Assembly: GCA_902773135.1 (NCBI GenBank)
Contig: CACYDP010000140.1
Coordinates: 1-49,563 of the forward strand
Length of the DNA stretch: 49,563 nt
Direction: 5' to 3'
Source: an uncultured Ruminococcus sp.
GTDB taxonomy: Bacteria; Bacillota; Clostridia; Oscillospirales; Acutalibacteraceae
The notes below the pieces were generated by a model. That model was not told where the DNA came from and searched no databases. It saw only the letters and a program-made list of their open reading frames with translations. Both the position numbers and the translations under genes were made by a program. The stretch's first letter is position 1, and each line of letters begins with the position of its first letter. Positions 8,260 to 49,286 of the stretch are shown one piece after another.

Positions 8260-8290
8260 ATTTCAATTTTCCTCCCAAACCGATATTTAT

Positions 8291-8319
8291 AATATAAACC
8301 TTAGCGGTATATTTGTCAA
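8291..8319 (-). promoter_or_regulatory. Sigma-70-type promoter within the aro block
   Basis: On the minus strand TTGACA (8314-8319) is followed after 17 bases by TATATT (8291-8296), about 30 bases upstream of the DUF3592-like gene start. It gives the downstream aroF-tyrA-aroB genes a possible independent start. Confidence 0.65.
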
Positions 8320-8331
8320 GACTTTAAACCG

Positions 8332-8357
8332 CAAAACTTTAAAGTATTAAAGTTTTG
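8332..8357. repeat. Inverted repeat between aroK and the DUF3592-like gene
   Basis: CAAAACTTTAA and TTAAAGTTTTG flank a 4-base loop (11-bp perfect arms). On the minus strand no T-run follows, so it is a poor terminator for aroK. It lies just upstream of the -35 box of the internal promoter and could be an operator. Confidence 0.45.
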
Positions 8358-8427
8358 GTATTTTTTGTCAAACAATCTTTGTTCAATTTTTTTAATGGAG
8401 CGATCCAACAGATTTGACAGGCTTTTC

Positions 8428-8934: not shown

Positions 8935-8954
8935 ATTGCAAATCCCACCTGTTA

Positions 8955-18215: not shown

Positions 18216-18965
18216 TCAAGTTTCATTCAGTTTTTTAAAAAGATTGATGCAATGCGGATCCCAGCTGACATTTTCCTTTATCTTTTTTGCCGGTACTCCT
18301 GCTATGAGTATCCTTTCCTCATCGAAAGCCCTGGTGACTATACTTCCCCAACCAACAATACTTCCTGAACATATCCGTGTATTTTTTCCTATCTTTACAT
18401 CTTTTCCTACCCATACCCTGTCACCTATCTCAATGTATTTTCCTTCATTGAGTATAGTTCCGTCAGATTCATAGATAGTATGTGCATCTGTACACCATAT
18501 ATCAATTCCCCATGAAAACATCGAATTTTTTCCTATCTCAACATAAGAACCATTGTCCTGCAAATATATCATAGTTCCGTTGAACTGGGTATTCTCCCCG
18601 ATACTTACACGGCACTCATCAGCAGTGCGAAAAACTTCTTTTTCAAGCCAGTCATCAGGACCGCCTCCGATATTGATCTTCAAGCCTTCCATATTTTTTT
18701 CAGGATAATAATTCACTTTCAGCTTGTCAAGCTCAACTGTATTATTGTTTCCGATAACCGAAACGGATATTCCTTTATTCAAAAGTGCATCATCTGCATA
18801 TTCATCGTCCCTGAGCTTTCTTATTACCTGATTTCCTGCACCTTTTATCATTATCTTTGACTGAGACAGAAGCTTTAGCATTTCCTTGTCTGTTGTCGGA
18901 AATACCTGTATTTTTTCTCCGTCAGGATACTCAAAAATGATAGTATTATTCTGTTCAATAAACAT
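18216..18965 (-). CDS. Hexapeptide-repeat acyltransferase, last gene of the NRPS-PKS operon
   Basis: A 249-residue protein whose C-terminal half is a left-handed beta-helix: VSIGENTQFNG, YVEIGKNSMFSWGIDIWCTDAHTIY, KYIEIGDRVWVGKDVKIGKNTRI, GAGSIV-like GWGSIVTRAF and AGVPAKKI. The His of CTDAHTI is the likely catalytic base by comparison with serine and maltose acetyltransferases. The N-terminal 90 residues are unusual and not recognised. Its ATG directly follows the TAA of the upstream NRPS gene. A tailoring or chain-capping acetylation of the product is the likely role. Acceptor and donor are unknown. Confidence 0.8.
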   Translation of the reverse strand: MFIEQNNTIIFEYPDGEKIQVFPTTDKEMLKLLSQSKIMIKGAGNQVIRKLRDDEYADDALLNKGISVSVIGNNNTVELDKLKVNYYPEKNMEGLKINIGGGPDDWLEKEVFRTADECRVSIGENTQFNGTMIYLQDNGSYVEIGKNSMFSWGIDIWCTDAHTIYESDGTILNEGKYIEIGDRVWVGKDVKIGKNTRICSGSIVGWGSIVTRAFDEERILIAGVPAKKIKENVSWDPHCINLFKKLNET

Positions 18966-21900
18966 TTATACCTCCATTGTACCAATGTCATCGAGAATTT
19001 TCTGCCACGTTTCAGTGATGAACGTCATTTCCGCATCGCTGAAAAATTCCTTATCATAGTAGAATCTGTAAACCCGTGCATTTTCATTTATATCTACCAT
19101 CAGCTGCAACTTGGTTGAATTGCTTTCTGCTTTGTTTCTGATATACTCAAATGCACCATATCCGGTAGTATCTCCTGAATCTATAAGATTCAGCACCATA
19201 TCACTGTACACTGTATTAAGTTTCTGCACTATATGATTCTTACGTGCATAATCTTTAAAAGATGTTTTGGTTTGTGAAGAAGCATTCAGCAACGCTTTTT
19301 GAGCAGTATGGAGAGAACTTCTGAAATTCTCTGTATCAGAAGGCATTTTAATGATTATCTTCTTGACAAACATTCCTATCGTATTCTCATAGGCACCACT
19401 TGCACGGTCAGAAGCCGGAGCAGATATCCATATATATTCCTGTTCAGTAAATTCATTGATCAGTCTCGAAAAAAGAACAAGCAACCCTGAGAATAAAGAT
19501 ACATTTTCTGATACACAAAGCTTTTTAAGCTTACTGAACGTATCTTCATGAAATTCATAGTCTTTTTCAAGGCAATTACGGTCAACCGTGAGTTTTTCCG
19601 GCATATATATATCATCTGCCGGTTCAGCATTTTTCAGTTCTTCCCATTCAGGAGCATATTCGTCCCGGATTTCCCAACTTTCACGGATATAGCTGAAATA
19701 ATCACTGCTCTTGTCCTCGGACTGCGGTTTTCCGTAATATCGGTCAAGAATACGCCTGAACAGTATTTCAAACGACTGTTCATCAGATATGATATGATGC
19801 AGGGTTATCATAAAAATACTGCGTCCGTCTGCACACTTGAAAAGTATGAAACGGTAAAGAGGTCCTTTCTCAAGCTTCATAGGCATATCCGCAAGAGAGC
19901 TTATGATATACCCCTCCATACAATTATCAGCAATACGGAATACATTAAGACAATTCTCAGGAATATCATTTTGTATTATCTGTTTCAGCATCTTGCTTTT
20001 GTCAATTCTGAATACTGCACGAAGCAATGGCTCGTCAGCCAATACTGCTCTGATAGCACTGTTCAGCTTTTCATCATCTATATCATTATCAAGTTCAAGC
20101 CTTGCAGAAATAACATATCTTGTATTTTTGTGAAGATCATCGTATATCCACATATCCTGCTGTTCAGGAGAAAGCGGATAGGAATCCTGTATATCCTGTT
20201 TATTGCTGTCTGCTTTTCCGTCAGATACAGTATGATTGATAAGCTTTACCCACTCAGAAAAATATGGAACTTTCAGTATATCTGCAACGCCTGCCTTAAC
20301 TCCGAATTCAGCTCTTATCCTGTTAACAAGCTTTATTACACTTATTGAATTTCCGCCGTTCTGGTAAAGACTTCTGCTTATGTCGTAATTTTCGCTTATC
20401 AGTTCACAGCATATGTGCTCCAGTTTTTTCTCCTCGTCGGTAACTGCAATAACAGAGTGTGACATTTCACACTTGTATTCTCTTAGTTTTTTAATGTCTG
20501 TTTTTCCGTTTGGAGTTATTGGGAACTCATCAAGATGTATGTATCGAGCCGGTCTCATATACTGAGGAAGATTTTCGTTTACATATTTTTCAAGCTCGGA
20601 TTCGGATATATCTCTTTTTGCACTATAAAATGCTGTAATAAGATCATTTTTTCCGGCTGTTACCACAACACAGCGTTCTATCGCTTCAATGTCCATAAGG
20701 ATATTCGCTATGCCTTCAAGCTCAACACGTTTTCCGTTTATCTCAATCTGCCAATCTTTTCTGCCGCCGAAAGCTATTTCACCGTCAGGCATATACCATC
20801 CAAGGTCACCTGTTTTATACCAACGCTCACCGTCTATCATAACGAATTTCTCATTAGTCATTTCCTGCATATTATGATAGCCCACAGCAAGACTGATACC
20901 GCTTGCATACATCTCTCCGACTTTTCCGCATGGACAATTCTGATAGAATTCGTCAAATATCCTGTACTTTACACCTTTTAACGGGTGTCCGTAAGGAATG
21001 ATAGTACTGTTAATATCACTGTCAGTGACTCGATGCCATATACTCCATACTGTGGTTTCAGCCGGACCGCCAAGACTGTAAATATACTCAGGAGCAAGGA
21101 TATTCTTTATTCTTCCTGCAAGATTAGGTGAAAAGACCTCTCCTCCAAGCATTACCACCTTGAATTGTCCTTTTATCACATCAAGGTCAGTTCCTTGTGT
21201 CATCAGCATTTCCATAACAGAGGGACTTCCATTCCATATATTGACATTATGCTCCTTTATCAGCTTCAGCCACACAGACGGGTCTTTTTCCTCGTCTTTT
21301 CCCTCAGGGATAACTACCGTTCCGCCTGCTGAAATAATACCAACATTATCATATACGGACATATCATGACAAAGATTTGTCACAGCGATACATCTGTCAT
21401 TTTCGTTGATATCAAATTCTGCCTTAGTCTGCAAAATACAATTGACAAGACCTTCTTCATTGAGCATTATTGCTTTCGGAGTGCCTGTCGTTCCCGAACT
21501 GTGTATACAATAGCACTCCGGACAGCGTCCGTCAACTATAAAAATATCGTCGCCGTATTCTTTTCCGCAGGATATTTCAGATGCGTCTATAACTGGAATA
21601 TCTGTCATATTCCGCCATTTTTCAGTCAGAGCGTGTTCTGTTACAATGCATGATATATGAATATTCCTGAACATTTTCAGGAGCTGTTTATCACTGTTTT
21701 CTTTCTCAACAGGAACAAACGTCATATTGTTGATCAGACAAGCCACTTCGACAGCAGGCTGTTTCCAGCCTTTTTCAAGAAGTATGCCTACTCTTGTATG
21801 TTTATCACTGCCGCATCTGCTTATTATCTCGTCACGCAAAGCACCTGCATAGTTTTGAAGCTGTTTGTATGTCAGAGTCTTATGACTGCTTATGACAGCC

Positions 21901-22490
21901 GGATCCTCTCTGCGTTTCTGAAAAGTTTCTTTCATGAGCGAGCCAAAATGATCAGTTATCTCAACCTCGTAAAAAGGCTGCTCTGATACAGCTTTCTCGT
22001 CATCATCAAGCGGAACATGGTATATATCGTTCCAGCTGTCAGGATCAGCCGCAAACTGCTTAATAAGTCCGATAAATGTGTCCGCGATCTTATTGATCGT
22101 ATCGGTGCTGATTTTCTCCTCGATATAGTCCATTGTAAGGAGTACAGAATCCTGTGTATACATTAGTATCGAATCAAGCCAAACCTGACTTGTATGAGTT
22201 TTGCTGTATACCTTTTCAAGTTTCTGCGAACTTTTATATGGTATATCAAGAGTACTTGTAAGCACTATCGGAGCTATAAGTGCTCCCTCACGCAGTTTCT
22301 GCAATTCCTGAACGACCTCTATACCGGTAAAAGTACGATTTTCAATAAGCTCAAAAAGTCTGTCCTGAACTTCATACGCACAATCCATAAAGCTTTCATT
22401 TTTTCTTTCAGTCCAGTCATATATCAGAAAATCAGAGTATTCTCCTATGGTATACATCATATCCGGCACTTTCGGATCTCGTGCTGCCAT
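18966..22490 (-). CDS. NRPS Cy(C-terminal part)-A-PCP-C, downstream part of a frameshifted gene
   Basis: Non-ribosomal peptide synthetase of 1174 residues in this frame. Residues 1-165 are the rest of a heterocyclization (Cy) domain (SQVWLDS matches the Cy hallmark). The A domain (about 180-675) has SSGTTGTPKA, YKTGDLGW, GRKDWQIEINGKRVE and Lys663 in PNGKTD. Pocket residues read D-M-Y-N-M-G-L-V-W, partly like the cysteine code. The PCP serine is in GGNSIS (about 712-716). A full condensation domain ends the protein (about 770-1174), with LHHIISDEQS, so the usual HHxxxDG has Glu for Gly. The frame has no SD before its first ATG. It continues the upstream fragment at 22457-23308 after a one-base shift near 22586-22600. 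No thioesterase follows in-line. Confidence 0.88.
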   Translation of the reverse strand: MAARDPKVPDMMYTIGEYSDFLIYDWTERKNESFMDCAYEVQDRLFELIENRTFTGIEVVQELQKLREGALIAPIVLTSTLDIPYKSSQKLEKVYSKTHTSQVWLDSILMYTQDSVLLTMDYIEEKISTDTINKIADTFIGLIKQFAADPDSWNDIYHVPLDDDEKAVSEQPFYEVEITDHFGSLMKETFQKRREDPAVISSHKTLTYKQLQNYAGALRDEIISRCGSDKHTRVGILLEKGWKQPAVEVACLINNMTFVPVEKENSDKQLLKMFRNIHISCIVTEHALTEKWRNMTDIPVIDASEISCGKEYGDDIFIVDGRCPECYCIHSSGTTGTPKAIMLNEEGLVNCILQTKAEFDINENDRCIAVTNLCHDMSVYDNVGIISAGGTVVIPEGKDEEKDPSVWLKLIKEHNVNIWNGSPSVMEMLMTQGTDLDVIKGQFKVVMLGGEVFSPNLAGRIKNILAPEYIYSLGGPAETTVWSIWHRVTDSDINSTIIPYGHPLKGVKYRIFDEFYQNCPCGKVGEMYASGISLAVGYHNMQEMTNEKFVMIDGERWYKTGDLGWYMPDGEIAFGGRKDWQIEINGKRVELEGIANILMDIEAIERCVVVTAGKNDLITAFYSAKRDISESELEKYVNENLPQYMRPARYIHLDEFPITPNGKTDIKKLREYKCEMSHSVIAVTDEEKKLEHICCELISENYDISRSLYQNGGNSISVIKLVNRIRAEFGVKAGVADILKVPYFSEWVKLINHTVSDGKADSNKQDIQDSYPLSPEQQDMWIYDDLHKNTRYVISARLELDNDIDDEKLNSAIRAVLADEPLLRAVFRIDKSKMLKQIIQNDIPENCLNVFRIADNCMEGYIISSLADMPMKLEKGPLYRFILFKCADGRSIFMITLHHIISDEQSFEILFRRILDRYYGKPQSEDKSSDYFSYIRESWEIRDEYAPEWEELKNAEPADDIYMPEKLTVDRNCLEKDYEFHEDTFSKLKKLCVSENVSLFSGLLVLFSRLINEFTEQEYIWISAPASDRASGAYENTIGMFVKKIIIKMPSDTENFRSSLHTAQKALLNASSQTKTSFKDYARKNHIVQKLNTVYSDMVLNLIDSGDTTGYGAFEYIRNKAESNSTKLQLMVDINENARVYRFYYDKEFFSDAEMTFITETWQKILDDIGTMEV

Positions 22491-23308
22491 AGGTATATTA
22501 AGCAGAAATGGATTTTCACTGCTGTATTTTGATATAGCTTTGCCGTATGCTGTAAGAAAAACTGCAAATGATGACAGATGTCTTGAAAAACCATTTTTTT
22601 CAGAGATTCATACTCATCCTTTGAGAATGATCTTGTTATCTGTCTGCTCGTTTCCGTGAGCTTTTCGGGAGTGTTCCTCGACCTCAGATCAGGAGCTTCC
22701 GGAAAAGTTTTTATCTGATCGAGCCAGAATTTTTTACATTCAGCATATTTTTCGGAGTTTTTACGCTTATTGATGTCTTCAACGTAATTTCTATACGAAT
22801 AGCTGAGTTTTATAGGTTCATTTCTGTTGCCGCAGTAAAACTCATCAAGCTCACATATCAGCATTTCGTGACTCCAGCCGTCTGCAATGATACCGTCATG
22901 GTACATATGTATGATGGCTGTATTGTCCGAAAACAATGTAACCTCAAAATATATCAGCGGAGGCTTTTCAAGATCAAAGCTTACAGAAAAAATCTCACAA
23001 CGTTTTTTTTCGATGTAGTCCTTAGCTTCTTTTTCTGTGATATTCAGTTTATTCAGCTTTATTTCTTCAATACCGCAGTCGATAATCTCCTGTGTACCGT
23101 CCTGATATATTGCACACCTTAACATCTCATTACTTTCAACAAGCATATCAACTGCTTTTTTGAATTTTTCGTGGTCGTAGTCACTGCACCTCAGTTCAGA
23201 ATAGGCTCTGATAGGATCTCCGCCCATTTCCATACCGTCAAGTCTTCCTATCAGATAAGTCATCTGCATATCTCCGACCGGAAAACGATCATTATTATCT
23301 GTCCGCAT
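22457..23308 (-). pseudogene. NRPS N-terminal part of a Cy domain, truncated by frameshift (or sequencing error)
   Basis: Starts at ATG 23308 (GGGCGG upstream), overlapping the thioesterase end by 14 bases; a GTG at 23341 is a less likely start. The product begins with a Cy domain: a start like FPVGDMQMTYLIGR, and the intact DxxxxDxxS motif at Asp138, Asp143 and Ser146 (HDGIIADGWS). After residue 240 (SLKKMVF) the frame loses homology and stops. The next frame continues with SSFAVFLTAYGKAI and NPFLLNIP, matching MVLLTAYSQTL and SFLINLP in the partner Cy domain at 24790-28158. Adding one base in the A7/T5 tract region (22586-22600) restores one protein of about 1446 residues. Error, mutation or recoding cannot be told apart here. 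Confidence 0.8.
22586..22600 (-). other. Frameshift site in homopolymers
   Basis: On the minus strand the sequence is CTG-AAA-AAA-ATG-GTT-TTT-CAA. One base is missing for the two NRPS frames to join. The seven A and five T are the natural places for an indel or for -1 ribosomal slippage. Confidence 0.75.
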
Positions 23309-24074
23309 TTTTACCGCCCTTCTGCTTGTTGATTTCTGCACGTATTATGTCAACTATTTCTTTAGTATGGTCCTGAGGAAAAAAGTGTCCACCGACAAAT
23401 TTTTCGATCCTACAATCAGAAGAAGTATATTTTTTCCATGTCTTGCAATCTTCTTCCGAAACCTTTGTGTCAAAACTGCCACGTAATACAAGTATACTGC
23501 AATCAACCTCAATCTCAGGCTTTTTGCAGTATGTTTCGCATACATGAAAATCGCTCCTTACTATCGGAAAGTAGTAATCGCAGAAATCCTGCGAGTCAAG
23601 CAATTCATCATCTATCTGCCCATAATCGTTCAATATATACTTTATATCATCGTCTGATATGTTAAGAACGCTTTGTCCGGTGAATTGTATCTCAGGATAC
23701 ATAGGAGCTCCGCAGGCTGAAACCACAAGCAATTCCGGACTAAGACCGTATTTTTCTTTGAGCTGGAATACTGTTTCATAAGCTATCATAGCTCCCATAC
23801 TGTGTCCGAATATGATAAAGGGCATATCAAACAGCTCGGTATTCTCACTGATGAAACTTTCGGCAAGTTCTTCTATCGTGTCGGGCATATCCTCGTTTCT
23901 GCGTCGGTTTCTCTGTGGAAGCTGAACTGCACAAAGCTCCATACCCTCATCACAATACTGTTCCCACGAAGAAAACCAGGACGCATTTCCAGCAGCATAG
24001 TGAAAACATATAAGTCTTACAGTTGCATCAGGCTTCTCATGATGCTGAAACAGCCATTTATTCGTTGCGACCAT
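23295..24074 (-). CDS. Type II thioesterase (GrsT/YbtT-like)
   Basis: An alpha/beta hydrolase of 259 residues that removes wrong or stalled acyl groups from carrier proteins. It has the family's CFHYAAGNASWFSSW start, LPQRNRR for the usual LPGR, the nucleophile Ser92 in FGHSMGAM, an RGSFD segment near the acid, and GGHFF with the C-terminal His. Its ATG lies inside the end of the SagB-type oxidase gene (17-base overlap) with GGAGG before it. It is the only thioesterase in the cluster, so it may also take part in product release. Confidence 0.92.
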   Translation of the reverse strand: MVATNKWLFQHHEKPDATVRLICFHYAAGNASWFSSWEQYCDEGMELCAVQLPQRNRRRNEDMPDTIEELAESFISENTELFDMPFIIFGHSMGAMIAYETVFQLKEKYGLSPELLVVSACGAPMYPEIQFTGQSVLNISDDDIKYILNDYGQIDDELLDSQDFCDYYFPIVRSDFHVCETYCKKPEIEVDCSILVLRGSFDTKVSEEDCKTWKKYTSSDCRIEKFVGGHFFPQDHTKEIVDIIRAEINKQKGGKNADR

Positions 24075-24786
24075 TGAAATTTCCTGCCTCCATACAGCTC
24101 AGATATATCATATTATCAGATAATCCGAAATAATTTCTTATTGAGGTAAAATTCATATCCCCTATTATGCACGTACCTATGCCATTTTCTTCGCAGGCTG
24201 CCGTAAGATACCCCAGCATTATTCCCGAGTCAACTATCCCATAGTACAAGCCCATACCGTTATATTTCGGCATTGAACGTTCAGCATCATAAACAAGATA
24301 AACAGAAAATGCCGATGAGGAAAAAATATCCCTGTTTCCGAAATAATGGGCTTTTGCCGGTAATTTTTCTGCTGATACAGACATAAGCTCATTTTGCAAC
24401 GGAAGATAAAGGTATATACCACTCCCGATACCTTCCACCATACCCTCTTTGACATAGATATATACATCTACCGGATATAGTCCTCCTGCACTTGGGTATG
24501 AAAAACGTATATTGCCGTCTTTTTCATAAGCTCTGAGGCACGACAGCACTGCTGATAGTTTTTCAAAGCTTACAGGCTGTTCAGAAAACTTTCGTACAGT
24601 CCGTCTGTTTGACATTTTAGCTGTATCTTTAAGCGGAAATCCGTTTTTATCTGAATGTCGTCTTACAGAAGCATTTACAAATCTGTTTGCTGCTTCGACA
24701 TCATACATCATATCCTCCTGCCAATCAGGGAGTTTTTTCGCTGTCTCGTCAAACTTATCGAAAACATCGTTTATTCTGTCTATCAT
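24058..24786 (-). CDS. SagB-type nitroreductase-fold oxidase (thiazoline dehydrogenase candidate)
   Basis: An FMN enzyme of 242 residues. The FMN-binding RRTVRKFSEQP segment (about 61-71), YPSAGGLYPVDVYIYV (about 98-113), GLYYGIVDSGIMLGYL (about 180-195) and GIGTCIIGD (about 203-211) are characteristic of the SagB-type dehydrogenases. These oxidise thiazolines or oxazolines to thiazoles or oxazoles in azoline peptides and, as Ox domains, in NRPS lines such as epothilone and bleomycin. Placed between two Cy-containing synthetases, it probably oxidises one or both thiazoline rings. It is stand-alone rather than in-line, and the N-terminal 55 residues are not recognised. Confidence 0.87.
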   Translation of the reverse strand: MIDRINDVFDKFDETAKKLPDWQEDMMYDVEAANRFVNASVRRHSDKNGFPLKDTAKMSNRRTVRKFSEQPVSFEKLSAVLSCLRAYEKDGNIRFSYPSAGGLYPVDVYIYVKEGMVEGIGSGIYLYLPLQNELMSVSAEKLPAKAHYFGNRDIFSSSAFSVYLVYDAERSMPKYNGMGLYYGIVDSGIMLGYLTAACEENGIGTCIIGDMNFTSIRNYFGLSDNMIYLSCMEAGNFNGRNE

Positions 24787-24789
24787 CTA

Positions 24790-28158: not shown

Positions 28159-28160
28159 AC

Positions 28161-29750: not shown

Positions 29751-29765
29751 TTTACCAACGCCTTT

Positions 29766-33443: not shown

Positions 33444-33457
33444 TCTGCCCCTCCTCC

Positions 33458-35800: not shown

Positions 35801-35801
35801 C

Positions 35802-36557: not shown

Positions 36558-36579
36558 CTTTACTCTCCTCATCAAAAGA

Positions 36580-37761: not shown

Positions 37762-37783
37762 TTTTGACCTCCCGTAGTAATTA

Positions 37784-39643: not shown

Positions 39644-39661
39644 TATCCTTTCCTTTCTCTA

Positions 39662-40588: not shown

Positions 40589-40814
40589 ACTGCTTTATGA
40601 CATCAACAATATCGTTGACAGTTACAAGATTTGTATAATTCAGCTCTTCGTTGATATTGTATTCATCTTCAAGTGCCGAAATAAGACCCATCGTATCAAG
40701 AGAATCCATTTCAAGCTCCTGACGGAGTTTTGTATCTCCGTTTATTTCGACATCATCATCAACGCAAAGTTCTTCACGTATAATTTCTATCACTCTTTCA
40801 ATATTGACGTTCAT
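40581..40814 (-). CDS. Free-standing acyl carrier protein of the NRPS-PKS cluster
   Basis: A 77-residue ACP with phosphopantetheine Ser38 in LEMDSLDTM, and acidic helix 2 (ALEDEYNINEEL). The frame is open to 40964, but the first 50 codons overlap the PKS end and are not ACP-like. ATG 40814 with GGAGG just upstream is the clear start. It lies 23 bases after the PKS gene. Possible roles are a relay between PKS and NRPS parts or a carrier for the extender made with the carboxylase/reductase. Confidence 0.9.
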   Translation of the reverse strand: MNVNIERVIEIIREELCVDDDVEINGDTKLRQELEMDSLDTMGLISALEDEYNINEELNYTNLVTVNDIVDVIKQYA

Positions 40815-40837
40815 TTTTTCCTCCTTATGGTATATGG

Positions 40838-43800
40838 TTACTTGCCTGTTCTTTGGTCGATAACGTCTGCAATTTCCTTTACAGTTGTACAGCCAAGCAG
40901 GTCTTTTACTGAAAAATCTATACTGAATCCGTTTTTTATTTGCGAACATATCATAAGTCCGCAAAGGGAATCAATATCATACGAATAAATCGACGAATTT
41001 ATATCATCGACTTTAATACTGGTTATTCCTTCGATTATTTTGCAAAGTCTTTTTTCTGTTTCGCTCTGATAGCTTACCGCTAAATCTTCATTTTGATTCT
41101 TTATATTGTACCTTTTCTTCCAACTTTCCGGCACTGCAAGTTCATAGCTTCCGTTTTCTTCGATATATCCCATGATATATCTTTTTTCGTATCCGGAAAC
41201 TGCCTTTGCTCTGCTTACATCAGACACATCATTTTCAGTATTTCTTTGTGCGAATATAAGCGCTGTATCTGTAAGTTTTTCATTATTTCCCTCAAAGAAG
41301 CGTACATTATCAAAACCTGTCTCCTCAAGTGTACGGTAAAAATGTTCTTTTTTCATTATCGGACTGTACCTTCTGAGAGGGTCATTGCAGTAATTCCACC
41401 ACTCCGGCGTAAGACCATAAAGCATCTCACTTATATGGTGTCCGTCCATAGTCTGAAGCAGAACAAGGTATCCGCCTTTTCTCAGTACCTTGAAGCAATT
41501 TTGCAATGATGCTTTCATATCCGCTGTTGCCTGTATCACATTGCACGATACTACCACATCAAAATAATTGTCCGGAAGTCCCTGTTCTCTGAAATCTCTT
41601 GTAACGTCCACCTTGCAGAATTCAAGCGAATCATACCCGTTTTCCCTTGCAAATACCTTAGCTTTTTCAATGAAAGAAGCTCCTATATCTGTAAACCAGT
41701 AATCACCGCCAAATTTTTCAGTTACTTTTACAGAATTCCATGTCACAAGTCCCGTACCTGCTCCTATTTCCAGTATTTTGAGCGGTCGTGAGCTTTCATC
41801 AGCAAGCTTTTCGAGCATTTCTGAAAAAATCGACGAATATAATCGCACCTTATTCATTTCCGGTATCTTCTTATACATATCAAAAAGCTTATTGTAAGAA
41901 CCGTTAGGATAGAGAAGTTCTTTTCCGAGTACCTTTCCTTCAAAGACCTCCGGATAATGTACGGCTATGTCAGCATAAAGCTCAAAAAACGGTATATAAT
42001 CCGGTTCAAGTTTCCTGACTTTTTCAAGTACAGTTTCAAGAGTATCTGTTTCAGATATACTCTTAATACATCTCACCTTGTTGCTGTCTTTTATATCCTG
42101 TGCGTACTCAACATTTTCAATGATTATGTAACCATTTTCTCTCAGAAACGAGAGCATAAGCATTACAAACGGACAGTATTCCTGAACAAGTCGGAGTTTG
42201 TTCTTTATTTCCGACCAGCTTAAAACACTGCCGGACTGAGCAAACAAACCGTAATGCCTGAAATATCCGGCAGAAGCTGATAGACAAAGCATATCAAGTG
42301 AAGTTTCAAGATCTTTGTTTTCCTTAACACACTTTATGTCAGAAGATTTAAGTCTTTTGATTTCTATGTCCGCAAAATCGGCATATACACTTTCGGCTTC
42401 TTTCCAGCCGGTTTCCTCTGGCTTATACTGGAGTATTTCGGTCTCGCATTTTCCATTAAGAAACGAAACAAGCTCTGACATTTCTTTCGAGCATCCGTCC
42501 AGTATCAGCTGTTTTTTCTGAATAAACGATACTGTATCATGCTTGTTCTCAAATTCATTGTAGACTTTTTCGTTAAATGATGAAGGCGGAAGATATATAT
42601 GTCTGCCCTCAGAAACAGTATGCTTGCTCAATCCGTAAGAAGTTAGTACAGACAAACCATATAACAACGCTTCACCACGATCCGATATATCATCGCTTAT
42701 CATATTGATGAACGCTTTTCCAGCACGTTTTTTTACTGTCTTTTTGACAAAATACGAAAGCTGTCCCCCGACTCCGATCTCAATTGATGTCATACTCTCA
42801 AACGTATCAAGCACTTTTGCCGCATTATAGAAATCTACTTTGCTTCTCAGCTGTTCTGCCCAATAATCAGCAGTTAAAAGCTCCTTATCAGCAATGCGTC
42901 CGGTAAATGAGGATATGTATGTCACTTCCGGCATTTTAAACTCAATTGTATCAAGAAGTGCTCGGAATTCCGGTATGATACCGTCAACTATGCCGCAATG
43001 TCCGGCTCGGTTTAAAGGAAGTTCTGTACAGAGTATGTTTTTTTCTTCCAGTATTTTTACATAATTATCAATATCTTCGGTAAGACCTGTTATCATAAAT
43101 CTGTTAGGAGTATTACGGGCTGAGATGTATACGCCGTCCGGCAATTCAAACTCGTCGGGATCACCTAAAACAGTAACTATCTTTCCTTCCGGAAGTCCGG
43201 CAATCAGCTTATTTCTGAGATAATAAAGCCTTATCAGCTCTTTTCTTGTTATTACTCCTGAAAAATATGCGGCTATATATTCTCCTGCACTGTAACCAAT
43301 GACCGCATCACAAGCTACACCAATTTCTTTCAGCATATCTCCGACTGCACACTGAACACAAAGCGGAAGCAGTGCTGATTCAAGCTGAGTATCAAAATCA
43401 GCTTTTTCTGCCAGCTTTTGTTTGAAGTCGATTCCACTTTCAGATTTTACATCATCGAAAACAGCATCAAAGCAGCTTCTTACCTCAGCCGAAATATTAT
43501 ATATAGCTCTTACTTCGTCAGCACTTAAAAAATTGCTGCCTGCAAAAAGCCATATGACCTTTTGTGCATTTTTTTCAGCCGGTCTTTCATAAGTCATGAA
43601 CGGCTGTCTGAGCATTCGTATCAGACTTTCTGTACTCCCTGCACCAAACGGAACACGATATTTTTTTAGCGGTGCTCTCGAAGAAATTGTGAACGCAATA
43701 TCTCTGAGCCGGGTTTCCGGCTCATGTTCAAGATAATCAGCAAGCTCCATACAATCTTTTTTCAAGCTCTGCTTATTTTCTGATGAAAGTATAACGCCGT

Positions 43801-45085
43801 AACCTCTTTTATCATCTGCAATACCGCTGTTTTCAGCATTATACGCTGACAGTACAATATGGCAGTTATTTCCGCCTACTCCAAATGCACTTACTCCCGC
43901 ATATCTGAGAGCCTCTGACTTTTCACAGCAGTTTGCTATCTTATAGCCGAATTTGTCCAGCGAAAGCTCCGGATTTATTTTTTCGCTGTATAATGACGGA
44001 ACTATGGTATGATGTTCAAGCATAAGGACTGTTTTTATCAGTCCTGCAATTCCAGCCGCAAAATTAAGGTGTCCTATATTTGACTTGACCGAACCTATGT
44101 ACAAAGGTTTGTTCTTTCTGTCTCCGAAAACCTGATTGATTGACGTTATCTCTATTGCATCGCCAAGCTTTGTACCAGTACCGTGAGCTTCTATATAGTC
44201 GATGTCGTCAGCTTCGATTTCCGCAAGATAAAGTGCATCGGACATGGCTCGGCACTCGCCTTTAACGCTCGGAGCAGCATAACTTGCCTTTTCACTTCCG
44301 TCATTATTTATTGCCGAACCCTTTATTACGGCATGGATAAAGTCATTGTCCTCAATGCTGTCACTGAGCATTTTAAGAAGTACCGCACCGCCTCCACAGC
44401 CGGGTACAAATCCGTCAGCTTCGGCACTGAAAGGCTTTGTATAGCCCTTTTTAGACAGTGTATTTTCTGCGTTGATGTAATAATCCTGATTTTCAAGAAT
44501 ATTTACTCCGCCGGCAATAGCTATATCACATTCTCCGTTTATGAGAGCATTGACAGCCTCGTGAACTGCATAAAGCGAACTTGCACACGATGCCTTTATC
44601 GGTACGCACGGTCCTGTAAAGTCCATATGATAGCCTATTCTTGAAGCAGATGAACCGTCAAGAAATGTTTTTCTCAAAGTCTGTTCTTCAGCATTTTCTT
44701 CAGATGTTGTGAAATATCCTTTCCAGACATACACAAACTCATAAAGCGAACAAAAAAGTCCGACACGCACTTTTTTTCTGTTGGTTGAGTATCCGCTTGT
44801 TTCAAGTACCTCCGCACAAAGCTTGAACATCATTCTTTGCTGTGGGTCCATAAGCTTTGCTGACATTTCATTGAGTCCGAACGCATCAGGATCAAAACTG
44901 TACACATCATTGATTTGTCCGAAAGCGTATGTTCTGCACAGGTCGGATTTGTCCTGTCTTGTGATACAGTCCTTTCCGTTTTTGAGATTCTGCCAGAACC
45001 TGTCAGGAGAACTGCTTTCCGGAAAACGGCACGAATATCCTATGATAGCTGCGTCTGTATCTTTGAACTCAAAATCATTATGCAT
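40838..45085 (-). CDS. Type I polyketide synthase KS-AT-cMT-ACP
   Basis: One module of 1415 residues. KS (about 8-425): active Cys167 (KASCASSL), His301 (EAHGTGT), His339 (SNIGHL). AT (about 510-800): nucleophile Ser599 in GYSAGEY, where most ATs have GHSxG; the selectivity motif is RAGH rather than the malonyl HAFH or methylmalonyl YASH. A linker region (about 870-1060) precedes a C-methyltransferase (about 1065-1290) with SAM loop LEIGAGTG. An ACP ends the protein (Ser in YDIDSLCG, about 1372). No KR, DH or ER is present, so the beta-keto group should remain. The order resembles the PKS part of yersiniabactin HMWP1 without its KR. A carboxylase/reductase lies 3 bases upstream and may supply the extender. 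Confidence 0.93.
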   Translation of the reverse strand: MHNDFEFKDTDAAIIGYSCRFPESSSPDRFWQNLKNGKDCITRQDKSDLCRTYAFGQINDVYSFDPDAFGLNEMSAKLMDPQQRMMFKLCAEVLETSGYSTNRKKVRVGLFCSLYEFVYVWKGYFTTSEENAEEQTLRKTFLDGSSASRIGYHMDFTGPCVPIKASCASSLYAVHEAVNALINGECDIAIAGGVNILENQDYYINAENTLSKKGYTKPFSAEADGFVPGCGGGAVLLKMLSDSIEDNDFIHAVIKGSAINNDGSEKASYAAPSVKGECRAMSDALYLAEIEADDIDYIEAHGTGTKLGDAIEITSINQVFGDRKNKPLYIGSVKSNIGHLNFAAGIAGLIKTVLMLEHHTIVPSLYSEKINPELSLDKFGYKIANCCEKSEALRYAGVSAFGVGGNNCHIVLSAYNAENSGIADDKRGYGVILSSENKQSLKKDCMELADYLEHEPETRLRDIAFTISSRAPLKKYRVPFGAGSTESLIRMLRQPFMTYERPAEKNAQKVIWLFAGSNFLSADEVRAIYNISAEVRSCFDAVFDDVKSESGIDFKQKLAEKADFDTQLESALLPLCVQCAVGDMLKEIGVACDAVIGYSAGEYIAAYFSGVITRKELIRLYYLRNKLIAGLPEGKIVTVLGDPDEFELPDGVYISARNTPNRFMITGLTEDIDNYVKILEEKNILCTELPLNRAGHCGIVDGIIPEFRALLDTIEFKMPEVTYISSFTGRIADKELLTADYWAEQLRSKVDFYNAAKVLDTFESMTSIEIGVGGQLSYFVKKTVKKRAGKAFINMISDDISDRGEALLYGLSVLTSYGLSKHTVSEGRHIYLPPSSFNEKVYNEFENKHDTVSFIQKKQLILDGCSKEMSELVSFLNGKCETEILQYKPEETGWKEAESVYADFADIEIKRLKSSDIKCVKENKDLETSLDMLCLSASAGYFRHYGLFAQSGSVLSWSEIKNKLRLVQEYCPFVMLMLSFLRENGYIIIENVEYAQDIKDSNKVRCIKSISETDTLETVLEKVRKLEPDYIPFFELYADIAVHYPEVFEGKVLGKELLYPNGSYNKLFDMYKKIPEMNKVRLYSSIFSEMLEKLADESSRPLKILEIGAGTGLVTWNSVKVTEKFGGDYWFTDIGASFIEKAKVFARENGYDSLEFCKVDVTRDFREQGLPDNYFDVVVSCNVIQATADMKASLQNCFKVLRKGGYLVLLQTMDGHHISEMLYGLTPEWWNYCNDPLRRYSPIMKKEHFYRTLEETGFDNVRFFEGNNEKLTDTALIFAQRNTENDVSDVSRAKAVSGYEKRYIMGYIEENGSYELAVPESWKKRYNIKNQNEDLAVSYQSETEKRLCKIIEGITSIKVDDINSSIYSYDIDSLCGLMICSQIKNGFSIDFSVKDLLGCTTVKEIADVIDQRTGK

Positions 45086-45088
45086 ATA

Positions 45089-46315
45089 TTATTCTTCCGC
45101 TCCAATCCTTATCACTAATTTGCCTTTGTAAACTTTATTTGCAAAGTCCATATGAGCCTTCGGCAATTCGCTCCAATCGTATATTTTTCCGATATACGGG
45201 TGGATGTCATACTTTTCTACAAGCTTGATATACTCTGCTGCATCTTTCTGAGTACCTGCATGCGACCCCTGTATCCTTCTCTGATTCAGCCATAAAAAAC
45301 GCAGGTCTATATCTGCCTTGTACGATGATGTCGCACCGCAAAGAACTACCATTCCGCCGTTTTCACATACAAATAATGATGTCGGAAGTGTATCTCTGCC
45401 AGGGTGTTCCAGTATGATAGCAGGCGATTTTTTTTCGCCGACTATTTTCCATATTTTACGCTTGAATTTTGTTGCCTGAGCTATCCAGCTTCGGTACTCC
45501 TTATCCGAAAGAGAGTTTACATTTCCCCAATGGTCAAACATCGAACGGTTTATATAACCGGCTGCACCAAGCTGTTTGCAGAATTCTCCTTTTTCTTCGG
45601 ACGATACCACTACAACAGGTATTCCTCCTAAAGCTTTTGTGATCTGTACAGCTGATATTCCAAGACCGCCTGCTCCTCCCCATATAAGGACAACATCGCC
45701 TTGTTTCAGAGTATTGCCTTCCCAACATTTAAGCATACGGTATGCAGTAACTCCTGTTGCATAAACACAGGCACCTTCATCACAATTCAGATTATCTGCC
45801 TTCTTTACACACTGACACTCCTGTACCCTCGAAAACTGAGCAAACGCACCGTAGTTTCCCTCATATCCCCATATATGATATGACGAACTGAAACACGGAT
45901 CCATTCCGGCAAGTATGTCTTTATCGTCAGGAGAATATTTTGAACCTCCGACACATATTGTATCTCCGACTTTATAATTCTTCACGTTTTTTCCGACTGC
46001 ATAAACGATTCCGCATGATTCTGAGCCGCATATATGAAAATCCTGCTTTTCGTCAAAATAGTCACCATTACTGTCTATTACATTTTTAGGCTTTGCATTT
46101 GCCGCCCATATTCCATTGTAATTTATTCCGGCACTGATATTATAAACAAGAAGTTCATCATCACGTATCTCTGGTATGTCAACAATTTCGACTTTGAATG
46201 CAGTTTCAGGCGAACCAAGTCTTTCATTTCTTATAGTCCACGCATACATTTTTCGAGGTATGACTCCTAAAGGCGGACGTTCTCCAACTTCGTATATTTT
46301 ATCTTCAAGTATCAT
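45089..46315 (-). CDS. Crotonyl-CoA carboxylase/reductase-like enzyme (MDR superfamily)
   Basis: A 408-residue medium-chain reductase that resembles CCR enzymes along its length: the N-terminal YAWTIRNERLG extension, GINYNGIWA, IWGYEGNYGAFAQ, LIWGGAGGLG (NADPH site), EHPGRDTLP, CGATSSY, LRFLWLNQRRIQGSH. CCRs reduce and carboxylate enoyl-CoA to alkylmalonyl-CoA extender units. Of the CO2-binding residues known in the Kitasatospora enzyme, the Asn in INYN, Glu in GYEG and His in GSH are present, and the Phe is Tyr151. Carboxylation is therefore plausible, giving the PKS an ethylmalonyl-like or other substituted extender. A simple enoyl reductase acting in trans is the alternative. Confidence 0.86.
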   Translation of the reverse strand: MILEDKIYEVGERPPLGVIPRKMYAWTIRNERLGSPETAFKVEIVDIPEIRDDELLVYNISAGINYNGIWAANAKPKNVIDSNGDYFDEKQDFHICGSESCGIVYAVGKNVKNYKVGDTICVGGSKYSPDDKDILAGMDPCFSSSYHIWGYEGNYGAFAQFSRVQECQCVKKADNLNCDEGACVYATGVTAYRMLKCWEGNTLKQGDVVLIWGGAGGLGISAVQITKALGGIPVVVVSSEEKGEFCKQLGAAGYINRSMFDHWGNVNSLSDKEYRSWIAQATKFKRKIWKIVGEKKSPAIILEHPGRDTLPTSLFVCENGGMVVLCGATSSYKADIDLRFLWLNQRRIQGSHAGTQKDAAEYIKLVEKYDIHPYIGKIYDWSELPKAHMDFANKVYKGKLVIRIGAEE

Positions 46316-46335
46316 TTATACCACCCATACTATAC

Positions 46336-48567
46336 TTAATCCTGATTATACTTCAGACTTTCACTGACATCTACCTTGTCAACTTTGCGGCGAAGCAGAA
46401 GCATCGACAAACAGTAGCTGATAAAAATACAGCAAAAATATATTGCTATGCTGGCAGGTGATATCCACGCATCTATATAACACTGGAAACTTTCAACATT
46501 TCCCTTGAAGTAAAAATCAGAGAAAAGATACCCCAAGTACAATCCAAGTATAGAAGAAATCACAAGTATCACAAAGTATACATTAAGTACCATTCTGTTT
46601 ATTTCACGATTTTTCATGCCAAGTATTTTCAGCATTGATATCATTCCTGAATTCTCCTGTACAAGCATATTTACCATCAGATAAATAACTATGATACAAA
46701 TTATGCATCCGATAACAACTGTACTTGTCATTGAAGGTATGATACCGTCAATGACGCTCTGTATCTGGTCTTTAAGAGATTTTTTTGTAACTGTGGATGT
46801 AACTTCATCGTTATCGTAATCCATCTTTTCGGAACTCATTACAACGTTATACAGTCCATCAGGAATATCGAACATTTCACAGATATTTTCCTTTGAAGAA
46901 TAAAGTACACACTGTACATCATTATCAATTACCTTATCTATTTTTATCTCGTACTCCTTCATTGAAGCCGGCTGGAAGAATTTCAGAGTTTCCCCTTCTG
47001 CGACTCCGTACTGCATTGATGCCATTTTGCTAAGATAATACTTGCCGTCATCAAGGTCAGCATCGTTTCCGGAAGTGTCCTTGAATTTAAGGTAACGGTC
47101 ATCACTGACACCTATAATATTAAAAGCACCTGTACTTCCTTCCACCTCAAAAGAAAGTCCCACAGAACCAACTGCATTTTCCGGAAGTTCATCATCTTTG
47201 AACCCGTCAAGGAAATACTCGTATTCAAAATCTCCGACTATATCAACAGCATGGTCACGATAATGCTCGCATGAATCGATGACATAAAGAGCATATACCA
47301 TCACAATACCACTTATAATAACACCTGCCGCAAATGCAAGTGTACGTGAAAAATGTCTGAATATAGTTCTGAATATGAATTTTCGCCTTACAGGACCTAC
47401 GGAAGACACAGCCTTTCTTCTCTTTTTTCCTGAGCCGGGTCTGTTTCTGAGAAGCTCGGTAACGTTTTTTCCTGTTATTCCGATAGTCTGCAAAAGTGCT
47501 GAACCACAGTACAAAACAGCCGGAAGCAGAATTGATACGATTATATCAGATAAGTTAAAGCTGTACTCTACCGGAAGCTTTTCTATCTTGAAAAAACACA
47601 TTGATGCTACACTGTCCTTAGCAAGCAATGCGATCATTATACCTAATATGCTGCCTAATGCCGCAGGTACGAGTGCAAACAGCATATAATGACGGTATAT
47701 CTGAGACTTTTTTATACCAAGTGCTAAAAGTACGCCTATTTGCTTTGCATCATTGAGAAGATGTCTCTTTAAAACTACGGCGGTAAGTATAATAACGATG
47801 AGCATGATAACAGGAAGTATCATATTTGCATACATACCAAGCTGCTGACAAAGGTTAAGCGGCATTGTAACTCTTCTGTTCATGTCAGCAGGCATATATG
47901 TAAGTGTGCCGTATTGGTCATAAAGGTATCTTCTGACAGAATTTATGTCTTCGTCCTGAGCATAAACTATCGAGTAATACTCCGATACCTGTTCGTCAAG
48001 GGAATCAAGTGCTTCATCGGACATTACTGCTATACCAAATTCTGCATCGGTGTGGTAGCTGTCTGAAAGATTCTCAAGCATGAACAGATAATCCGGACGC
48101 TCAACAAATCCTTTTACAACAAATTTTTTGCCAAATATAATGATACTGTCAGAAATATTGATAGAATTAGCCTCTGCAAAATTTCTGCTGATAAGAAGTT
48201 CGTTATCATTCTGAACGTCACTGCCATCTATTATACAGTATTTGTTTACCTTTTCAGTCTTTGTGAAACAGCGGATAGTATATTGGTCATTCTCAAAATT
48301 GACAAATCTGTTTTTCTCAACAGTAACGTTTTTTGCATTTTCAAGCTCTTTTATCTCGTCATCGTCAAGTGAAATCGGAAGTGTGAATTCACCGTTTTCA
48401 ACACAAGTTTCCTCTCTGATATTGTCTATGTATGCTTTTTCGCCGTTAACTCCTGCATGAAAACATAAAAAAAGGCATATAGCCACTGCTGTAAGAAGTG
48501 CAGAAAAAAAGTAGAATGAAAAATTTTTCTTAATGCTTCTTAAATATCTTTTGTTTAATGTAAGCAT
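46336..48567 (-). CDS. FtsX/MacB-type ABC transporter permease (first pair)
   Basis: About 743 residues. N-terminal helix (NFSFYFFSALLTAVAICLFL), outside domain (40-240), three helices (about 245-365), a second helix and outside domain (about 405-600), and three C-terminal helices (about 610-720) with MLKILGMKNREINRMV, the FtsX signature. ATG 48567 with GAGGG upstream is preferred over TTG 48573. It follows its ATPase by 17 bases and is only distantly similar to the second permease of the operon. Likely exports the product or a precursor. Confidence 0.87.
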   Translation of the reverse strand: MLTLNKRYLRSIKKNFSFYFFSALLTAVAICLFLCFHAGVNGEKAYIDNIREETCVENGEFTLPISLDDDEIKELENAKNVTVEKNRFVNFENDQYTIRCFTKTEKVNKYCIIDGSDVQNDNELLISRNFAEANSINISDSIIIFGKKFVVKGFVERPDYLFMLENLSDSYHTDAEFGIAVMSDEALDSLDEQVSEYYSIVYAQDEDINSVRRYLYDQYGTLTYMPADMNRRVTMPLNLCQQLGMYANMILPVIMLIVIILTAVVLKRHLLNDAKQIGVLLALGIKKSQIYRHYMLFALVPAALGSILGIMIALLAKDSVASMCFFKIEKLPVEYSFNLSDIIVSILLPAVLYCGSALLQTIGITGKNVTELLRNRPGSGKKRRKAVSSVGPVRRKFIFRTIFRHFSRTLAFAAGVIISGIVMVYALYVIDSCEHYRDHAVDIVGDFEYEYFLDGFKDDELPENAVGSVGLSFEVEGSTGAFNIIGVSDDRYLKFKDTSGNDADLDDGKYYLSKMASMQYGVAEGETLKFFQPASMKEYEIKIDKVIDNDVQCVLYSSKENICEMFDIPDGLYNVVMSSEKMDYDNDEVTSTVTKKSLKDQIQSVIDGIIPSMTSTVVIGCIICIIVIYLMVNMLVQENSGMISMLKILGMKNREINRMVLNVYFVILVISSILGLYLGYLFSDFYFKGNVESFQCYIDAWISPASIAIYFCCIFISYCLSMLLLRRKVDKVDVSESLKYNQD

Positions 48568-48584
48568 TTTCAACCCTCGTTATA

Positions 48585-49286
48585 TCAAAGTTCAAGTTCA
48601 CTTGCACTGACCTTTGCTGTGTTTATATCATTGGATATGATTTTACCGTCGTGTATTTTGATTATTCTGTCACCCATTTTAGCTATTTCATTATTATGAG
48701 TGATTATGATGATCGTTGTATTGTATTCAGCATTTATCTTTTCGATAAATTTTAATACATCTCCTGAGCTTTTAGAATCAAGTGCACCTGTAAGCTCGTC
48801 ACAAAGAAGGAGTTTTGGATTCTTTATTACCGCTCTCGCAATCGCAACACGCTGCTGCTGTCCTCCTGAGAGCTGATTGGGAAAACGTTCGGCAAGGTCG
48901 GCTATTCCCAACGTTGTCATAACGTCGTCAATGTCCAGAGGAGATTCGCAGTATTCTGCAACAACTTTGATATTCTCCCTTACAGTTAGTTCAGCAATAA
49001 GATTATAAAACTGAAATACAAATCCGATATTCTCACGCCTGTACATGAGGAGGTCTTTACTTTTTTTGCTCTTCATCTCCTTATTCATAAAAACAAATTT
49101 TCCGCTTGACATTACATCAATACCGCCAAGAATATTGAGAAGTGTACTCTTACCTGAACCGGACGAACCTAAAATTATTACGATCTCCTTTGGTTCGATT
49201 TCAAGAGAAACGCCGTCAAGAGCATAAACAGCATTATTGTCATCTCCGTATCGTCTTACAACATTTTCTAATTTCAAAAGTGACAT
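48585..49286 (-). CDS. ABC transporter ATP-binding protein, first gene of the operon
   Basis: A 233-residue MacB/LolD-type ATPase: Walker A GSSGSGKST, Q-loop FQFYN, signature LSGGQQQR, Walker B LLLCDELTGALD and switch ITHN. ATG preceded by GGGAGG. It opens the leftward operon, about 210 bases downstream of the promoter at 49506-49534, so transport is the first function expressed. Confidence 0.93.
   Translation of the reverse strand: MSLLKLENVVRRYGDDNNAVYALDGVSLEIEPKEIVIILGSSGSGKSTLLNILGGIDVMSSGKFVFMNKEMKSKKSKDLLMYRRENIGFVFQFYNLIAELTVRENIKVVAEYCESPLDIDDVMTTLGIADLAERFPNQLSGGQQQRVAIARAVIKNPKLLLCDELTGALDSKSSGDVLKFIEKINAEYNTTIIIITHNNEIAKMGDRIIKIHDGKIISNDINTAKVSASELEL

Follow-up and report, generated by a model that had tools for sequence, protein, structure and literature searches.

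The DNA examined here, called the window below, is the whole of contig CACYDP010000140.1 (C140; 49,563 bases) from the draft genome of an uncultured Ruminococcus sp. (GCA_902773135.1; 2.22 Mb in 140 contigs, 93.75% complete). Positions 18,216 to 49,286 hold a hybrid nonribosomal peptide synthetase (NRPS) and polyketide synthase (PKS) locus, in which all open reading frames (ORFs) lie on the minus strand and follow each other nearly without gaps. We count 19 genes, read as 20 ORFs since the gene for Cy-A-PCP-C reads as two; an initial annotation of the same DNA had correctly described adjacent genes on one strand but arrived at 17, and its list lacked the membrane protein at 32,421-33,443. Every enzyme type that it had named was found on that strand, where it had placed it, when the cluster proteins were compared with Pfam, 10 of the proteins with NCBIfam, and solved relatives were searched in the PDB. 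The features are given below in order of transcription, with domains abbreviated as A (adenylation), ACP (acyl carrier protein), ArCP (aryl carrier protein), AT (acyltransferase), C (condensation), cMT (C-methyltransferase), Cy (cyclization), KR (ketoreductase), KS (ketosynthase) and PCP (peptidyl carrier protein).

48,585-49,286, minus strand: ATP-binding cassette (ABC) transporter ATPase 1, first gene of the operon (PF00005, 7.5e-34)
46,336-48,573, minus strand: FtsX-type permease 1, partner of ATPase 1 (PF02687, 1.7e-27, two stretches)
45,089-46,315, minus strand: crotonyl-CoA carboxylase/reductase-like protein (CCR), predicted extender supply (TIGR01751, 453.2 bits; best PDB relative AntE, 1e-121)
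40,838-45,085, minus strand: PKS module KS-AT-cMT-ACP, KR not found (Pfam; motifs of KS, AT Ser, AT RAGH, cMT and ACP)
40,581-40,964, minus strand: free ACP (PF00550, 2.3e-8; the listed start overlaps the PKS gene and the true start is probably inside the ORF)
39,662-40,588, minus strand: BspA-type leucine-rich-repeat (LRR) protein (PF13306, 2.8e-53; signal peptide not seen by eye)
37,784-39,643, minus strand: A-PCP protein, predicted to pair with the terminal C (PF00501, PF00550; 417 bits to the A domain of a C-A protein in the same-genus genome G002)
36,580-37,761, minus strand: leucine-dehydrogenase-like protein (LDHl; PDB 3vpx, 2.5e-6)
35,802-36,587, minus strand: ABC transporter ATPase 2 (PF00005, 1e-29)
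33,458-35,821, minus strand: FtsX-type permease 2, partner of ATPase 2 (PF02687, 7.3e-23, two stretches)
32,421-33,443, minus strand: putative membrane-anchored extracytoplasmic protein (signal peptide and C-terminal transmembrane segment by eye; 82% identical in the second copy of the cluster, in Ruminococcus flavefaciens SAb67)
30,422-32,434, minus strand: ferredoxin-like and FrhB/FdhB reductase-like protein (PF04432, 2.4e-20; PF12838, 4.1e-9)
29,766-30,437, minus strand: Sfp-type phosphopantetheinyl transferase (PF01648, 5.9e-10; GVD and WTMKEA motifs)
28,161-29,750, minus strand: aryl-AMP ligase, predicted starter activation, with an unusual pocket (TIGR02275, 484.2 bits, below the cut-off of 723.55; PDB DhbE, 6.5e-120)
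24,790-28,158, minus strand: ArCP-Cy-A(Cys)-PCP (Pfam; PDB PchE, 3.4e-189, with the ArCP covered too; Cys-type code)
24,058-24,786, minus strand: SagB/BmdC-type flavin mononucleotide (FMN) thiazoline oxidase (TIGR03605, 88.7 bits, cut-off 78.4; PDB BmdC, 5.7e-41)
23,295-24,074, minus strand: type II thioesterase (PF00975, 3.9e-35; GHSMG motif)
22,457-23,341, minus strand: Cy-A-PCP-C, 5' part, N-terminal half of the second Cy domain, Cy2 (PF00668, 2.2e-19; alignment to the intact SAb67 ORF)
18,966-22,490, minus strand: Cy-A-PCP-C, 3' part, rest of Cy2, A, PCP and terminal C (PF00501, PF00550, PF00668; 80% identical to SAb67 residues 273-1446)
18,216-18,965, minus strand: hexapeptide-repeat acyltransferase, last gene (PF00132, 1.8e-5, below cut-off; several hexapeptide acetyltransferase models, all below cut-off)

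Two labels of the initial annotation could be refined. Its two exporters are two pairs of an ABC ATPase and an FtsX permease, and its Fe-S fusion joins a ferredoxin-like part to an FrhB/FdhB part, with a C-terminal half that has no Pfam match. The putative membrane-anchored protein has no significant Pfam or NCBIfam match. The proposed cluster edges agree with the extent of DNA homology to the SAb67 copy (18,232-49,304), and since the window is the entire contig, about 0.26 kb remains past the upstream edge. A promoter-like site lies upstream of the first gene (49,534-49,506; 11/12 matches in a consensus scan only, with 7 such sites in the stretch versus 2.4 in shuffles). Scans of the window for tRNA genes and Rfam families found none.

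A comparison of gene order in relatives, as had been proposed with the initial annotation, revealed that the cluster recurs in the same order in SAb67, a rumen bacterium (contig NZ_UETD01000008.1). This copy is the 1 locus confirmed among the 15 stretches that matched the pattern in a scan with the ArCP-Cy-A-PCP protein, made on one genome per species and detecting close relatives only. The DNA of the two copies is 80.3-81.6% identical over the whole homologous stretch, which ends sharply at the limits given above, and the sole gap in it (29,789-30,407) is the location of the Sfp gene, of which SAb67 keeps a remnant in the 108 bases between the neighbouring genes, with the first and last codons recognisable by eye. 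The cluster proteins are 71-91% identical, and the ratio of nonsynonymous to synonymous substitution rates (dN/dS) is 0.039-0.143 in 18/18 ORFs compared (the halves of the split gene taken separately, the free ACP and Sfp left out of the table), which is purifying selection. The Cy-A-PCP-C homologue in SAb67 is a single ORF of 1,446 aa. Decay in all relatives, a case that the initial annotation had allowed for, is thus not what we found: SAb67 has this intact ORF, and selection is purifying throughout the 18 ORFs compared, though most of the Sfp gene is gone. Since gene order is kept in two distant hosts together with purifying selection, a useful exported product that crosses host lineages is implied. 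Inside the operon, the BspA-type LRR protein is also kept in SAb67 (81% identical, dN/dS 0.067).

When 60 relatives were searched with the ArCP-Cy-A-PCP protein, 55/60 had a match at E 0.001, a level that any NRPS or AMP-ligase reaches, and the best non-self match, with 29% identity, was a hybrid in a genome of the same order (G044) that belongs to a different thiazole line. This 3,924-aa hybrid (G044:C1, ~279,700-291,500) starts with a KS, followed by a Cy-A-PCP and a second Cy-A-PCP with an embedded BmdC-like oxidase, and an ABC/FtsX pair lies nearby; it represents another uncharacterised thiazole line in the same order.

The surroundings of the two cluster copies are unrelated. The left flank in the window carries starch-binding proteins, prolyl-tRNA synthetase (ProRS) and shikimate genes; in SAb67, CRISPR-Cas genes and a citrate-type transporter stand on one side and major facilitator superfamily and ABC transporters on the other. 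The similarity between the hosts is also much below that between the clusters. For ProRS, the window host shares 64% identity with SAb67 and 89% with the same-genus genomes G002 and G012 (in G017, the fourth genome searched, a 28% partial match only). Four shikimate enzymes are 49, 46, 43 and 36% identical between the window host and SAb67, the last value being that of shikimate kinase from a match containing stop codons (a second kinase match gives 38%), and the 3-deoxy-D-arabino-heptulosonate 7-phosphate (DAHP) synthase has no match in SAb67; all five shikimate-pathway markers are 71-92% identical in G002. Considering that the cluster proteins are 71-91% identical while host markers are far lower, the cluster block has probably moved horizontally between lineages, and the high synonymous divergence across its ORFs (dS 0.76-2.44) indicates that such a transfer would be old. 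No repeat above chance was found at the cluster edges in either host (longest 11 nt versus a shuffle mean of 9.9), and no integrase was found among the part of the flank ORFs that was scanned, the right edge of the window lying near the contig end.

The shikimate genes of the left flank (4,715-9,794; DAHP synthase, 3-dehydroquinate synthase, prephenate dehydrogenase, shikimate kinase and shikimate dehydrogenase) sit between a pullulanase-like gene and ProRS, and none occurs in the SAb67 flanks retrieved. Starch-related proteins are encoded at 161-3,331, 12,083-13,990 and 14,252-15,754: one is pullulanase-like with CBM48, MucBP and CBM26 domains, one has an X25 domain, and weak CBM26 matches, below cut-off, occur in the two that are not pullulanase-like. 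These starch-type domains are the basis on which the host can be called starch-degrading, as the initial annotation did.

The earlier description of LDHl as amino-acid dehydrogenase-like is borne out by a weak kinship to leucine dehydrogenases (PDB 3vpx, E 2.5e-6), but not by any significant Pfam or NCBIfam family match (best Pfam E 0.075). Among the 64 genomes of the genus, LDHl occurs in its own and in G002 only (1/63 other same-genus genomes). A wider search at E 0.001, own genome included, matched 2/345 genomes of the order, 27/398 of the phylum and 39/391 of the class, with best non-self scores of 18, 27 and 26 bits, respectively, a level typical of generic dehydrogenases. The G002 homologue is 52% identical and is found directly after a PCP, adjoining a protein in which C and A are fused. 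When 71 loci were compared, the terminal C of the window scored 234 bits with the G002 C domain (72 with the next unrelated locus), the A domain of the A-PCP protein 417 bits with the G002 A domain (next 187) and its PCP 59 bits with the G002 PCP (next 38). The stretches FDGSLKTIFTPL and GPAECSC are common to both A domains, suggesting that these activate the same or a similar amino acid. LDHl adjoins the A-PCP protein or its homologue in all three loci found. From these sequence relations, the terminal C, the A-PCP protein and LDHl are predicted to be one functional set, a split module. We rejected the A-PCP as an unattached protein, the "free A-PCP" of the initial annotation, since it pairs with the terminal C, as the fused and clearly closest G002 homologues indicate. 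The lack of an in-line release domain, also pointed out then, holds, but its meaning is changed by this cassette.

In G002, no ArCP, Cy, PKS or CCR was found in the ORF lists of the 19.2 of 23.2 kb of the contig that were read (8 ORFs scanned), a negative that for PKS and CCR covers that one contig. At G002:C17 19,035-23,175, the C-A protein is encoded on one strand and the PCP plus LDHl on the other, and both are cut short where they meet, as an inversion would leave them. This copy may be rearranged; nothing convincing was seen among inverted repeats in the locus.

The position of LDHl raises the possibility, which we hold tentatively and at less than even weight, that it does not supply an amino acid but works on the terminal residue held by the carrier, as a tailoring or release enzyme. 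LDHl directly follows a PCP in two otherwise different loci, the cluster has no in-line release domain, and, by eye and in a region that the computed alignment does not cover, all three homologues have Arg at the position of the leucine dehydrogenase lysine, which we take to be the catalytic Lys80. An Asp that aligns with position 115 of leucine dehydrogenase, presumably catalytic too, is nonetheless kept, as in supplier dehydrogenases, and a Rossmann-type motif can be recognised by eye, as expected of a building-block dehydrogenase.

At the other end of the predicted assembly line, the nearest solved relative of the aryl-AMP ligase is DhbE. Its pocket reads N-F-N-A-L-G-V-N at the positions aligned with GrsA 235, 236, 239, 278, 299, 301, 322 and 330, identically in SAb67. 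The codes tabulated in the available part of PMC3672683 are N-Y/F-S-A-Q-G-V-V for 2,3-dihydroxybenzoate (DHB), N-F-C-A-Q-G-V-I/L for salicylate and N-F-C-S-Q-G-V-L for 3-hydroxypicolinate; positions 239, 299 and 330 set the ligase apart from both the salicylate and the DHB code. By sequence, the pocket thus predicts neither salicylate nor DHB, in line with the earlier remark that the starter pocket differs from those known in the yersiniabactin and pyochelin pathways. No salicylate or isochorismate synthase was found in the cluster or in the 93.75%-complete genome. The single chorismate-binding protein detected in the genome has its best score with anthranilate synthase component I (TrpE-like; 516.3 bits versus a cut-off of 517.7), in a search whose control profile matched in 14/14 genomes. 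We would guess that the starter is anthranilate or an externally supplied aryl acid, anthranilate being the first guess because the only chorismate-binding enzyme detected looks like TrpE.

The best solved relative of the ArCP-Cy-A-PCP protein is PchE and the second-best BmdB, and it is 36% identical to Irp2 over 98% of its length and 38% identical to a Vibrio lentus NRPS adjoining a salicylate synthase and iron-uptake genes. The opening logic is therefore like that of yersiniabactin and pyochelin, as the initial annotation had recognised. Its Cys-type A domain is supported too, the code (D-L-Y-N-L-S-M-I) being near the Cys codes tabulated in the accessible part of PMC3672683. The second A domain, in Cy-A-PCP-C, gives D-M-Y-N-L-G-L-V when its motifs in the window are read by eye, a code that is Cys-like and less sure; Cy2 keeps the DxxxxD motif, the Thr and the Asp. 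The SagB-type oxidase matches BmdC at 5.7e-41. Since BmdC is itself a free-standing oxidase that forms the thiazole in bacillamide synthesis, according to the portion of PMC8795117 at hand, we rejected a separate thiazoline oxidase as a novelty of this cluster, contrary to the initial annotation, which had listed it as a distinguishing trait.

The CCR reaches 453.2 bits to TIGR01751 versus a curated cut-off of 378.55 and has AntE as nearest solved relative (1e-121). Its GINYN, WGYE and GSH motifs, which we take to be the carboxylase motifs, are kept in both strains. The AT carries the motifs GYSAGE and RAGH, again in both strains. Motifs of the form xAGH presumably mark ethylmalonyl ATs; no use of TAGH was found in the literature among the matches listed. 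As far as sequence goes, RAGH fits an unusual extender unit. The parts of PMC6490886 consulted give HAFH for malonyl, YASH for methylmalonyl, and SPGH or VASH, with smaller residues, in ATs for larger alkylmalonyl units. With a CCR in the cluster and an AT motif outside the canonical ones, the extender may be an alkylmalonyl unit such as ethylmalonyl. The PKS could act once the first ring is closed, as it does in yersiniabactin assembly, or as the last step of the line.

We consider it probable that the operon was horizontally acquired, is complete in gene content and would make an exported, probably aromatic-capped, cysteine-derived thiazol(in)e-polyketide-amino acid. Each chemical step of the following route draws on knowledge of the enzyme families. 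The carriers would be primed by Sfp, and an aryl acid, neither salicylate nor DHB and at first guess anthranilate, would be loaded onto the ArCP by the aryl-AMP ligase. Cysteine would then be added and the thiazoline closed by the first Cy domain (Cy1), and the BmdC-like oxidase could convert a thiazoline to a thiazole. KS-AT-cMT-ACP would contribute one C-methylated unit, possibly from the alkylmalonyl extender, and Cy-A-PCP a second Cys-like residue. The terminal C may join the chain to the amino acid on the separate A-PCP, and LDHl would either make this amino acid or act on it at the carrier. Release may be carried out by the type II thioesterase or LDHl, and the two ABC-FtsX pairs, from their sequences, point to a product that is exported. 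A bolder version seems quite unlikely to us, in which this mobile 31-kb line makes a new aryl-thiazole-(alkyl,methyl)polyketide-amino acid class, the last step uses a repurposed leucine-dehydrogenase fold on the carrier-bound amino acid, and the C + A-PCP + dehydrogenase cassette is a portable one, also found apart.

Several observations weigh against the thiazol(in)e-polyketide-amino acid proposal. A 3-hydroxyacyl-CoA dehydrogenase (PF00725) was not found in the 93.75%-complete host, in a search whose control matched in 7/14 genomes only; because none was detected, the source of crotonyl-CoA for the CCR is unexplained. In a tree of 21 KS rows (19 from outside the cluster, with upstream-domain labels from a crude motif scan and record annotations), the KS of the window sits on a branch 2.0 long and is not placed among the others. 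In Cy1, DxxxxD begins with Ala instead of Asp in both strains, and the catalytic Thr has become Ala. The Thr to Ala change is the only one shared with PchE, and we rejected the idea that it leaves Cy1 dead, since PchE has it; for the DxxxxD aspartates, the available text of PMC9547227 describes a structural role. In G002, the N-terminal part of the C domain is missing, and the PCP and dehydrogenase are encoded on the other strand. Full clusters were found in two genomes, those of the window host and SAb67, and as SAb67 holds only an Sfp remnant in its cluster, another transferase would have to prime the carriers there. Finally, five host markers that could be matched, ProRS and four shikimate enzymes, carry the case for transfer, and the split of Cy-A-PCP-C means that this strain may not produce the compound, barring an assembly error.

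SAb67 has one PF00725 match (102,094-102,384 of G381:C14), on the contig of its large PKS locus. That locus (~40,000-126,000) is a very large multi-KS one and accounts for 23/28 of the matches of this genome to the window PKS.

The product could instead be a metallophore of the yersiniabactin, pyochelin or equibactin kind, as the initial annotation had suggested, if the aryl acid came from the surroundings and uptake genes were encoded elsewhere. This reading has the closeness of ArCP-Cy-A(Cys)-PCP to PchE on its side, together with the identities to Irp2 and to the V. lentus NRPS near iron-uptake genes. Moreover, equibactin, a Gram-positive relative carried on a mobile element, has no salicylate synthase and requires supplied salicylate in defined medium, as far as the available part of PMC3672683 tells, so that a siderophore may be made even where the aryl-acid synthase is missing; the retrieved part of a metallophore survey also counts ten clusters whose genomes hold no chelator pathway at all (PMC12971057). 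The ligase pocket, however, fits neither salicylate nor DHB. To our knowledge, a thiazoline oxidase and FtsX-type exporters are untypical of aryl-capped thiazoline metallophores, which also counts against it. No siderophore uptake gene, iron regulator of the DtxR/Fur type or thiazolinyl reductase was seen when the 19 genes were matched to protein families. Peripla_BP_2 was detected in one protein of the genome, encoded outside the cluster (C20, 12,350-13,012) by an ORF that also matches a spore cortex-lytic model. This 544-aa ORF is an unusual fusion, its C-terminal part matching the spore cortex-lytic enzyme model below cut-off. Genes for uptake, regulation or salicylate/DHB synthesis that would back this reading were not seen in the cluster, and we regard a metallophore as somewhat unlikely. 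As no uptake gene was seen there, our preference is for a secreted aryl-thiazol(in)e-polyketide-amino acid different from the textbook siderophores.

Decay of the cluster in this strain, the frame change in Cy-A-PCP-C killing the product and leaving the remaining genes freshly freed from selection, appears decidedly unlikely. The domains that the initial annotation had assigned to Cy-A-PCP-C are all present, but its single reading frame is not: the gene is split near 22.6 kb into 22,457-23,341 and 18,966-22,490 by a one-base frame change that alignment places near 22,595, adjoining a short A run. This change, along with the loss of most of the Sfp gene in SAb67, would fit decay. The two halves, however, have dN/dS values (0.062 and 0.080) as low as the other ORFs compared, which equal their SAb67 homologues in length, and, in a draft of 140 contigs, a change of one base could stem from an error in the assembly. 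Because both halves show strong purifying selection, the break would be recent or such an error. A bacillamide-like line, in which a free amine would take over the chain from the terminal C and the separate A-PCP would belong to some other step, is very unlikely: the Cy-A-PCP-C layout with a BmdC-type oxidase is that of bacillamide (PMC8795117, as far as available) and BmdB is the second-best solved relative of ArCP-Cy-A-PCP, but the homologous C of G002 is fused to a homologue of this "separate" A domain and the cluster Pfam matches include no decarboxylase.

The interest of the favoured thiazol(in)e-polyketide-amino acid line lies in one cluster uniting an aryl-thiazoline opening, a BmdC-type oxidase, a CCR and a C + A-PCP + dehydrogenase cassette, which raises the questions of the starter aryl acid, of the CCR-supplied extender and of the role of LDHl beside a carrier-bound amino acid. 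Reports of PKS clusters from rumen genomes are few, the accessible part of one survey counting 75 PKS among 14,814 clusters in 8,160 genomes (PMC8241843). The product could be searched for in SAb67, where Cy-A-PCP-C is intact, if that strain is obtainable and another transferase replaces the lost Sfp.

Compared with pyochelin and yersiniabactin (PchE, HMWP2/Irp2), as these pathways are generally known, the cluster has the same ArCP-Cy-A(Cys)-PCP with a separate aryl-AMP ligase. It differs in its starter pocket, in a separate oxidase instead of a thiazolinyl reductase, in having neither KR nor in-line thioesterase, in its extra C + A-PCP + dehydrogenase cassette and CCR, and in that no uptake genes were seen. 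With equibactin (Streptococcus equi ICESe2, eqbA-N), it shares a Gram-positive host, a Cys-type A domain, an aryl ligase without an aryl-acid synthase of its own and, as a further likeness, carriage on a mobile element on the equibactin side; the part of PMC3672683 at hand, which also names a 55% identical ligase in the anaerobe Clostridium kluyveri, describes for equibactin alone a single A domain serving every cysteine, ABC importers, a regulator of the DtxR kind and a code that predicts salicylate, none of which was seen in the 19 genes here. The separate FMN oxidase and the Cy-A-PCP-C arrangement recur in bacillamide synthesis (BmdA/BmdB/BmdC), whereas bacillamide, in the available description (PMC8795117), has no aryl starter or PKS and its C uses free tryptamine. 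The CCR resembles those of the AntE type in its score, its motifs and its best solved relative; here, unlike there, the PKS module also has a C-methyltransferase and no 3-hydroxyacyl-CoA dehydrogenase was detected in the host. The G002 cassette has homologous C, A, PCP and LDHl, but with C and A fused and the PCP in a separate ORF on the other strand. In agreement with the initial annotation, which could name no described cluster of this kind, no description of this gene set was found in the open-access (PMC) literature among the matches listed, where SAb67 is mentioned by three papers dealing with different topics; automated surveys may have recorded the locus already. Each enzyme class is thus known from such systems, and, as far as tested, it is their combination and the C + A-PCP + dehydrogenase cassette that are new.

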